From Comamonadaceae bacterium (GTDB lineage: Bacteria > Pseudomonadota > Gammaproteobacteria > Burkholderiales > Burkholderiaceae_C), in contig JAIYBZ010000037.1 of assembly GCA_027488255.1 (NCBI GenBank), positions 186,001 through 250,000 on the forward strand: DNA of 64,000 nucleotides. Direction: 5' to 3'. The position numbers and the translations under genes were made by a program. Positions 40,284-42,798 of the stretch are shown here, in pieces. The number at the start of each line of letters is the position of its first letter. Position 1 is the stretch's first letter. Below the pieces are notes generated by a model, which did not search any database, was not told where the DNA came from, and saw nothing but the letters and a program-made list of their open reading frames with translations.

Positions 40284-40868
40284 TCAGCTGCGCTGCAATT
40301 TGTAGACCGCTGTGCCCGCCATCAGGTTGGGCCACGTGCGGACCTCTTGGCCGTTTTGCAGGCCAAATGCGTCCATCACTTGAAGCTGATTTTTGCGCGC
40401 CAAGTCACCAAAGTCAGCAAAGGTGCCGACGCGGATGTTGGGCGTGTCGTACCACTGGTAAGGCAGGCGTTTGGTCACGGGCATGCGGCCTTGCACCACA
40501 CTCAGGCGGTTGAACCAGTGCGCAAAGTTGGGGAATGCCACAACGCCCACACGGCCCACACGCACGGTTTCGCGCAACATGGTTTCGGCATTGCGCAAGT
40601 GCTGCAAGGTATCGATTTGCAGCACCACATCGAAAGACTGGTCGGCAAACAAGCTTAGGCCTTCGTCCAGGTTGAGCTGCAAGACATTCACGCCCCGTTG
40701 CACGCAAGCGTGCACATTGGCATCGCTCAGTTCGACCCCGTAACCGGTGCAGGCCTTGTGCTGCTGCAAATAGGCCAGCAAGGCACCATCGCCGCAGCCC
40801 AAGTCGAGCACCCGTGCGCCTTGGGGCACCAGACGGGCAATGGCTTGCATGATCAGTGGGTCGCTCAT
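40284..40868 (-). CDS. metW: Methionine biosynthesis protein MetW
   Basis: [22 protein letters not shown]...[28 protein letters not shown]. Confidence 0.94.
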
Positions 40869-42022
40869 GCCGCACCTCCTTCGCGCAAGTCATCGGCCAT
40901 GTTGTCGAAGTAAGAGCGCACCACCTTCAGGTAGCGCGCATCGTCCAACAAAAAGGCGTCGTGGCCGTGTGGCGCATTGATCTCGGCATAGCTGACATCG
41001 CGGCGGTTGTCCAACAAGGCTTTCACCATTTCGCGGCTTCGGGCCGGCGAAAACCGCCAGTCGGTGGTGAAACTGACGAGCAAAAATTTGCAACGGGCGC
41101 GGCTGAATGCCGCCGACAAATCACCGCCATACGCGCGCGCAGGGTCAAAGTAGTCCAGTGCGCGGGTGATCAGCAAATAGGTGTTGGCGTCAAAGTACTC
41201 GCTGAATTTGTCGCCTTGGTAGCGCAGGTAGCTTTCGATCTGAAACTCCACCTCTTGCGTGGAATATTTGTAGCCCGTGGCGTTGTGTGTGACGGCTTCG
41301 CGCAACTGACGGCCAAACTTTTCGTTCATCACATCGTCGCTCAAGTATGTGATGTGTCCAATCATGCGGGCAATGCGCAGACCCCGTTTGGGCACCACGC
41401 CGTGTTGGTAAAAGTGGCCGTCATGAAAATCGGGGTCAGTCACGATGGCGCGTCGCGCCACTTCGTTGAAAGCGATGTTTTCGGCGTTCAGGTTGGGCGC
41501 GCTGGCCACCACCACCGCGTGTTTCACGCGGTCGGGGTATTGCAGCGTCCAGCTCAGGGCTTGCATGCCGCCCAAACTGCCGCCCATCACCGCGGCGAGT
41601 TGTTCGATGCCCAGGGCATCCAGCAAGCGGGCTTGCGCGTTCACCCAGTCTTCTACAGTGACCACCGGAAAATCTGCGCCATACACGCGGCCCGTGTCAG
41701 GGTGCGGGTGCATGGGGCCGGTAGAGCCAAAGCACGAGCCCAAGTTGTTCACGCCAATGACAAAAAATTTGTCGGTGTCCACCGATTTGCCGGGCCCGAT
41801 CATGTTGTCCCACCAGCCCCGGTTTTCGGGTTGGTCGGCGTACACACCGGCCACATGGTGCGAGGCGTTCAGGGCATGGCAAATCAACACCGCGTTGGAT
41901 TTGTCGGCGTTCAGCGTGCCATAGGTTTCGTAGCTGAGCGAATAGCCACGGATGGACGCACCGCTTTGCAAAGGCAAGGCGGCTTCAAAGGTCATCGACT
42001 GTGGCGTGGCAATCAACTTCAT
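40865..42022 (-). CDS. metX: Homoserine O-acyltransferase
   Basis: [55 protein letters not shown]...[14 protein letters not shown]; overlaps metW. Confidence 0.95.
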
Positions 42023-42031
42023 GGTGCAAAT

Positions 42032-42067
42032 AAAAAACCCGATAACGCTCAAGAAGCGATACCGGGT
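42032..42067 (-). terminator. Intrinsic terminator-like hairpin immediately upstream of metX start
   Basis: Minus strand ACCCGGTATCGCT-TCTTG-AGCGTTATCGGGT followed by T-run; 12/13 paired incl. one G-T. Confidence 0.85.
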
Positions 42068-42074
42068 GGGTCCT

Positions 42075-42145
42075 GCCTCTTTAGCTGTATTTTGGGATCG
42101 GTGAGATTCCTGCGCCCGCAAGCTGGAGCAAATCGGCGCGCCGCC
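42075..42145 (-). ncRNA. SAM-II-like (SAM-alpha) riboswitch aptamer upstream of metX
   Basis: Minus strand GGCGGCGCGCCGAUUUGCUCCAGCUUGCGGGCGC...ACAGCUAAAGAGG: P1 GCGCC/GGCGC, loop blocks GAUUUG and GCUUGC, 3' GCUAAAG, in SAM-II order; cognate gene metX. Confidence 0.72.
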
Positions 42146-42153
42146 AGTATAAA

Positions 42154-42723
42154 TCAGCCCCAGCCTAGGCCCAGCAAGGCCACAGTGCCCAGCATGGCAA
42201 AGATGGCCGCCGAGATCAGGTGCACCCAGCGCAAGGGCACTCGGCGGGTGATGGCTTCACCCAACCAAACCACCGGTGCGTTGGCCAGCATCATGCCCAG
42301 AGTGGTGCCCGTCACCACCATGAACCAGGCTTGGTATTGCGCGGCCAGCATGACGGTTGCGATCTGGGTTTTGTCGCCCATTTCGGCCAGAAAGAACGCC
42401 ACCACCGTGGTCAAAAACACGCCAAAGCGGGGGGCCTTGTCGACTTCTTCTTCGTCCAGCTTGTCGGGGATCAGCATCCAGACCGCCATGGCCAAGAACG
42501 AACCGCCCAACACCCAGCGCAACACGTCGGGCCCCAGCACCGTGGTGACCCAACTGCCTACTGCGCCCGCCAGTCCGTGGTTGGCCAGTGTGGCCACCAA
42601 AATGCCCAACACAATGGGCCATGGTTTGCGAAAGCGCGCGGCCAGCACCAAGGACAAAAGTTGGGTTTTGTCCCCCATCTCGGCCAAGGCCACGATGCCG
42701 GTAGAGACGAGGAATGCTTCCAT
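42154..42723 (-). CDS. TMEM165/GDT1 (UPF0016) family cation exporter
   Basis: Two EMGDKTQ motifs ([41 protein letters not shown]). Confidence 0.92.
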
Positions 42724-42798
42724 GTGCGCGCGCCGAACAGGTGTGAAAAGCGCCATCTTAATGGACGACTTGGCGCACCTGAGCTGACATGCATCAAT

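Follow-up and report, generated by a model that had tools for sequence, protein, structure and literature searches.

A diverged SAM-II-type leader RNA with a hairpin at the SAM-V P3 position, predicted to control metXW by transcription termination

Background

What kind of RNA stands in front of metX in a freshwater member of the Comamonadaceae, and how might it act on the gene? The leader lies on the minus strand of a 64-kb window (the whole stretch of 64,000 nucleotides that was analysed), and a first-pass annotation had described it as a SAM-II-like riboswitch joined to a terminator. SAM-II RNAs that have promoter elements ahead of P1 and a terminator downstream were described in 2005 (PMC1273637), and the class is mostly transcriptional, betaproteobacteria included (PMC2258182, PMC6061858), rather than often translational as the annotation had it. 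For metZ of S. meliloti, experiments lend support to levels of a terminated SAM-II leader that depend on SAM (PMC9373788). Termination in a betaproteobacterial SAM-II is thus ordinary for its kind, and the annotation's sense that it was out of place there did not survive: the passages of a 2014 survey that treat an RNA called metXZ report that 35 betaproteobacterial genomes, including 10 of 11 Comamonadaceae, carry it with its terminator ahead of metX or metZ (PMC4239095). The unusual part of the window leader is instead the position of a small hairpin, which matches P3 of SAM-V.

The metX locus and its promoter

The leader occupies a gap of 131 nt, read directly from the minus strand, between a GDT1-family exporter gene (42154-42756; PF01169) and metX, encoding homoserine O-acyltransferase (40865-42022, minus strand; NF047916, 658 bits), for whose product the best NCBIfam model is O-succinyltransferase MetX. 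The next gene, metW (40284-40868, minus strand; TIGR02081, 239 bits), overlaps metX by 4 nt and belongs to the same operon. MetX of the window genome shares 93% identity with that of several Limnohabitans, and the source genome is that of a Limnohabitans-like, freshwater bacterium. The metX start codon (ATG, 42022-42020, minus strand) follows the U-run of the terminator by 9 nt, and direct reading finds no Shine-Dalgarno sequence near it, as the annotation had also observed.

A -10 box, TATACT, lies at 42146-42151 (minus strand), 6 nt 5' of P1. A box of the form TATA[ACG]T occurs no more than 45 nt 5' of P1 in 82 of 86 related leaders, against a chance expectation of about 0.006 per leader, and because it lies 6-9 nt from P1 in most of them, the metX transcript probably begins close to the first P1 base, that is, at the aptamer itself. 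A consensus promoter scan of the leader gave no match, with no -35 box above threshold. In two relatives a manganese riboswitch (RF00080) lies upstream (L005 655-834, L028 547-733), probably that of the GDT1-family exporter gene; neither it nor any other Rfam family has a match at gathering thresholds within the 64-kb window.

Anatomy of the aptamer

Read along the minus strand, the leader consists of TATACT, GCGCC, GAUUUG, CUCCA, GCUUGC (42123-42118), GGCGC, a linker of 26 nt, GCUAAAGAGG (the GCUAAAG region, 42085-42076), the terminator and the ATG, so that a SAM-II layout of P1, GAUUUG, UUGC and GCUAAAG spans 42139-42076. The stem that the annotation had drawn, GCGCC/GGCGC enclosing GAUUUG...GCUUGC, is read directly at 42139-42112, with the 5' strand of P1 at 42135-42139 and its 3' strand at 42112-42116 (both minus strand). 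P1 is nearly invariant within Burkholderiales; across a set of ten proteobacterial sequences, three of the five P1 pairs show changes in both partners (in alignment A5 the comparison row 'L032like' carries hand-typed flanking bases, its P1 letters being those of L032). The loop sequence L1, GAUUUG (42129-42134, minus strand), is nearly invariant across aligned homologues; in SAM-II and SAM-V it forms the third strand of the SAM-binding triplex (PMC6061858).

The remainder of the core is a pseudoknot between the P1 loop and the 3' GCUAAA strand. In the binding core of SAM-II and SAM-V the U's and A's of the UUGC and GCUAAA strands form a triplex (PMC6061858), and our own mapping from that description would pair UUGC (P2b 5' strand, 42118-42121, minus strand) with GC-U-AA of GCUAAA (P2b 3' strand, 42081-42085, minus strand), an arrangement that fits the known core. 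Both strands are invariant in the 50 model-aligned sequences of alignment A1; their invariance in a larger set of 169 distinct core sequences holds by construction, the extraction pattern having required TTGC and GCTAAA. P2a is a stem of 2 bp in the window leader, CC (42125-42126) with GG (42077-42076, minus strand), and mutual information between loop and 3' side peaks on this pair: the column pair 23-75 of A1 (n=50) holds CG 19 times, UA 9, AU 5, UG 3, GC once and GU once. P1, P2a and the inserted hairpin described below are thus supported by covariation among homologues, and P2b by invariance. The sequences behind these counts are related, so that shuffle controls overstate significance; slid-register controls, in which kinship is kept, also fall well below the structure.

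Homology to SAM-II

The Rfam model of SAM-II, RF00521, scores the window leader at 13.1 bits (E 3.5) and aligns P1 and its loop only, far from the gathering cut-off of 36 bits, a limit set for detection and not a feature of anatomy. On homologues from other families of Burkholderiales the same model reaches up to 45.2 bits over its full length, and 16 of 100 Burkholderiales genomes have a match above the cut-off, whereas the 14 control genomes have none. A further covariance model, R3, was built from 28 hairpin-less sequences from outside the window's family, several of them above the Rfam cut-off; its top two matches in the 64 kb are 42139-42112 (28.2 bits, E 9e-7) and 42107-42068 (14.5 bits, E 0.012), E-values that are rough, and the break between the two falls within the inserted hairpin. 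Homology to members of RF00521 therefore holds with a model that lacks the window's own family. Another model, R1, has its P1 pairs one column out of register and so acts as a sequence profile; the correct P1 columns underlie R2, R3 and every pair count.

Judged by its features, the window leader has the P1 stem enclosing GAUUU(G) and UUGC, and it has the P2 pseudoknot. It departs from the known SAM-II RNAs in that P3, said to be absent from them (PMC6061858; a property reported for the known set and not one that defines the class), has a hairpin in its place. Since its score lies below the Rfam cut-off we call it a diverged variant, homologous to SAM-II, and it probably works like SAM-II. The energy of the whole-leader fold resembles that of shuffled sequences (z -0.46), so the case rests on comparison. 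The annotation had tied abandonment of a SAM-II-like riboswitch to a sub-threshold RF00521 score together with loss of the conserved pseudoknot and of any SAM-dependent change in probing or termination. The score is indeed below threshold, and SAM-V (RF01826) has no match in the leader region among Rfam matches up to E 10 and none from Rfam in the scanned related loci; because the pseudoknot is nevertheless conserved, with P2b invariant and P2a covarying, the identification stands, as a SAM-II-like aptamer that carries an inserted hairpin and precedes a terminator.

One further Rfam family touches the locus. RF02424 (the Burkholderia sRNA Bp2_287) scores, below its cut-off, the antisense of SAM-II elements in the window (42032-42171, plus strand) and at three related loci (L037, L031, L021), which suggests that RF02424 may have been built from the opposite strand of a SAM-II leader. 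Bp2_287 as a separate plus-strand RNA was rejected, its match being antisense of the leader element.

Distribution among relatives

DNA similar to the window leader occurs in 114 of 151 genomes of the family Comamonadaceae. A strict pattern with a short linker was found in 106 of the 151 and one with a long linker in 19, from 17 genera; reversed-pattern controls matched none of the family genomes. In the order as a whole the lineage model R1, used as a sequence profile, found the element in 232 of 300 genomes, against 16 of 100 by RF00521 at its cut-off, so the Rfam cut-off misses most betaproteobacterial members. The element adjoins metX in relatives fetched through MetX. Several Limnohabitans and related genomes have a different sequence upstream of metX (L079, L083, L088, L099, L109, L119, L124, L126, L137), and in these nine loci no SAM-II element lies within about 400 nt upstream of the gene.

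A second SAM-II-like element (GAUUUAAU...ACUUGCGGGGC...GCUAAAGCG) lies about 160 nt past the first at five loci (L043 1674, L049 1403, L053, L157, L159), and several of these second elements combine a P3-position hairpin with a Shine-Dalgarno-like sequence. The tandem arrangement suggests that termination and translation control may be combined on one gene.

A hairpin at the position of P3

The small hairpin that the annotation had thought possible is GGAAUC/GAUCCC with the loop UCACC (42094-42110, minus strand). In the window it is weak, five pairs and one A.C mismatch at -2.8 kcal/mol, and the weakest among the relatives that were folded, close relatives having up to 7-8 pairs; in 36 relatives, however, both partners have changed at six of its seven pairs, and 87% of cells are paired. 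The impression of a long internal linker was also borne out. Between P1 and GCUAAA the window leader has 26 nt, and linker lengths among 199 elements are bimodal, 12-14 nt in 148 and 24-42 nt in the 51 others, which fold a hairpin. The hairpin is present as well in another family of Burkholderiales and in other families of the class (L303, L305, L309, L310, L312, L314-L318). On the MetX tree the long-linker state requires 13 changes by parsimony, at least four of them forced by well-supported branches, and the long linker has therefore been gained or lost several times.

The comparison that makes sense of this hairpin is with SAM-V, in which P3 follows immediately on the P1 3' strand and leads into three stacked A's contacting the minor groove of P1 (PMC6061858). 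In the window leader the hairpin occupies the same position, which makes the annotation's mini-hairpin the P3-like part of a SAM-II aptamer. Next comes AAAAUACA (42086-42093, minus strand), in which A is nearly invariant at two positions across 169 elements; by analogy with the contacts described in PMC6061858, these A's would correspond to the A-minor strand after SAM-V P3, and the hairpin would probably stack below P1, outside the pocket, as in SAM-V. No published description of P3 in SAM-II was found in the open-licence literature.

Might the hairpin instead be a neutral insertion that contributes nothing to binding or switching? Such a reading, otherwise compatible with SAM-dependent control of metXW, is rather unlikely in our estimation. 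It would account for the patchy occurrence on the MetX tree, for linkers that vary between 24 and 42 nt and for the weakness of the hairpin in the window genome itself. The covariation at six of seven pairs argues against it, as do its confinement to one fixed place and the retention of the A's after it across several families, and these observations together indicate that base pairing of the hairpin has been selected. The elements on either side of the bimodal distribution supply natural SAM-II RNAs with and without P3, on which P3 function could be tested.

Terminator and candidate antiterminator

The aptamer is followed by an intrinsic terminator (42032-42067, minus strand) made of a hairpin at 42067-42037 and a U-run at 42037-42032. 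The first-pass annotation had placed it correctly before the ATG, and its energy of -17.5 kcal/mol (z -5.5) was equalled by none of 200 shuffles. A terminator follows 108 of 116 related elements. A consensus terminator scan of the leader did not list this hairpin, which has mismatches breaking up its stem.

A transcriptional OFF switch calls for an antiterminator that cannot coexist with the ligand-bound fold, and the candidate is a pairing of AAGAGGC (42075-42081, minus strand), which overlaps the 3' strand of P2b, with GCUUCUU (42051-42057, minus strand) from the loop and the upper part of the terminator's 5' arm. In the window this pairing, at -11.1 kcal/mol, is equalled by 20 of 200 shuffles, and a separate comparison with shuffled controls gave z 0.1; were it to form, it would be incompatible with P2a, with part of P2b and with the upper stem of the terminator. 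Across related leaders, pairing of the GCUAAAG strand with the 5' arm and loop of the terminator averages -10.96 kcal/mol, compared with -9.53 when partners are swapped (0 of 200). Taken class-wide, with one sequence from each of 28 families, the values are -11.8 and -10.6 kcal/mol (p = 3/5000 permutations), and within hairpin-bearing leaders only the complementarity is reached in 44 of 5000. These statistics suggest that the GCUAAAG strand and the terminator 5' arm may act as an antiterminator in the class, and for the window leader itself the suggestion is weak. Antiterminators that pair the P1 strands, UUGC/P1 or the hairpin with the terminator arm were rejected as no better than shuffles. 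The GCUAAAG pairing offers a testable antiterminator for transcriptional SAM-II switches, where experimental work is thin.

Mechanism and competing explanations

We consider it highly likely that the leader acts as a SAM-II-type riboswitch and governs metXW through transcription termination that depends on SAM. Judging from the -10 box, the mRNA would begin at P1; P1, P2b (UUGC with GC-U-AA) and P2a (CC/GG) would form the SAM pocket, its layout established by comparison and its ligand presumed. When SAM is scarce, AAGAGGC would pair with the 5' arm and loop of the terminator and allow readthrough into metX; with SAM bound, the 3' strand of the aptamer would be held in the pseudoknot, the terminator would form and transcription would stop about 10 nt before the start codon. 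The RNA would then be an OFF switch, with abundant S-adenosylmethionine probably ending metX transcription early.

The main competitor to such SAM-dependent termination is a constitutive attenuator, in which the aptamer does not govern the terminator and acts on RNA stability or translation, or in which the terminated leader serves as a small RNA. The S. meliloti metA leader, where a terminator follows a SAM-II aptamer without a predicted antiterminator (PMC9373788), offers a precedent, and shuffled sequences do as well as the antiterminator of the window leader. Set against these are the class-level complementarity between the aptamer 3' strand and the terminator arm, above that of swapped controls, and a metX start at which the aptamer has no Shine-Dalgarno sequence to mask; we regard the attenuator as improbable. 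A SAM-II layout that has been kept for another or an additional ligand, such as S-adenosylhomocysteine, or that has lost ligand binding, is less probable still: a related element at metK has a U-to-G change in its binding loop, so the class tolerates changes there, but GAUUUG, UUGC and GCUAAA in the metX leader are the core letters of RF00521, and the regulated genes make a methionine precursor, as would fit feedback by SAM.

It is hardly credible that the leader is a new metX RNA whose likeness to SAM-II is convergent, although this is implied by the first description of metXZ in 2014, whose passages on the element present it as novel and place SAM_alpha only in Rhizobiales and Rhodobacterales (PMC4239095). 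Full-length alignments to RF00521 above its cut-off in Burkholderiales genomes speak for common descent, as does covariation in the same pseudoknot. To judge by gene, taxon and the layout described, the window leader is the metXZ element: as set out by Leyn et al. (2014), metXZ shares with it the gene, the taxa, the terminator and pairings that resemble P1 and the pseudoknot, whereas those passages draw no link to SAM-II, contain no inserted hairpin and suggest a different antiterminator (PMC4239095). The metXZ element would thereby be explained as SAM-II.

Comparison with known SAM riboswitches

With SAM-II (RF00521) the window leader shares P1, the GAUUUG loop, the UUGC/GC-U-AA pseudoknot, P2a and a methionine gene, as well as promoter elements close before P1 and an intrinsic terminator downstream (PMC1273637, PMC2258182). 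It differs in reaching 13.1 of the 36 bits required, in its hairpin-bearing linker of 26 nt after P1, and in a P2a of 2 bp where 60% of SAM-II RNAs have 5 bp (PMC6061858). The SAM-V metY structure (PDB 6FZ0) is alike in the succession of P1, P3, A's and P2, in a 2-bp P2a and in the same binding core (PMC6061858), but SAM-V is translational and marine, whereas the window leader is followed by a terminator and masks no Shine-Dalgarno sequence. The SAM-II long-loops family (RF01726), of Bacteroidetes and marine origin, has the same core letters and a consensus without a hairpin after P1; it matches a Burkholderiales homologue weakly, at 21 bits.

These likenesses raise the plausible if tentative view, to which we give slightly less than even weight, that SAM-II and SAM-V are one continuum, in which proteobacterial SAM-II RNAs have repeatedly gained or lost a SAM-V-type P3 stacking under P1, here with a terminator rather than a masked ribosome site and with a second SAM-II-like RNA at metK. 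If true, the entry to methionine synthesis and the synthesis of SAM would both be under SAM-II-type RNAs in a Limnohabitans genome.

A SAM-II-like RNA at metK

In the window's genome a SAM-II-like RNA lies directly upstream of metK, the SAM synthetase gene (L172 1501-1568; contig C12 of G000, 338200-338267, plus strand), a gene that the 2014 survey, in its relevant passages, lists as not under known regulators in betaproteobacteria (PMC4239095). Model R3 scores this leader at 41.5 bits (E 3.6e-9), and it has no Rfam SAM match up to E 10. Similar metK leader DNA occurs in 96 of 101 family genomes. The loop reads GAGUUA, not GAUUUG, and P2a, GAAC/GUUC, is nearly invariant. In three metK leaders of the family (L274 112, L280 145, L286) insertions of about 50 nt are likewise found at the P3 position.
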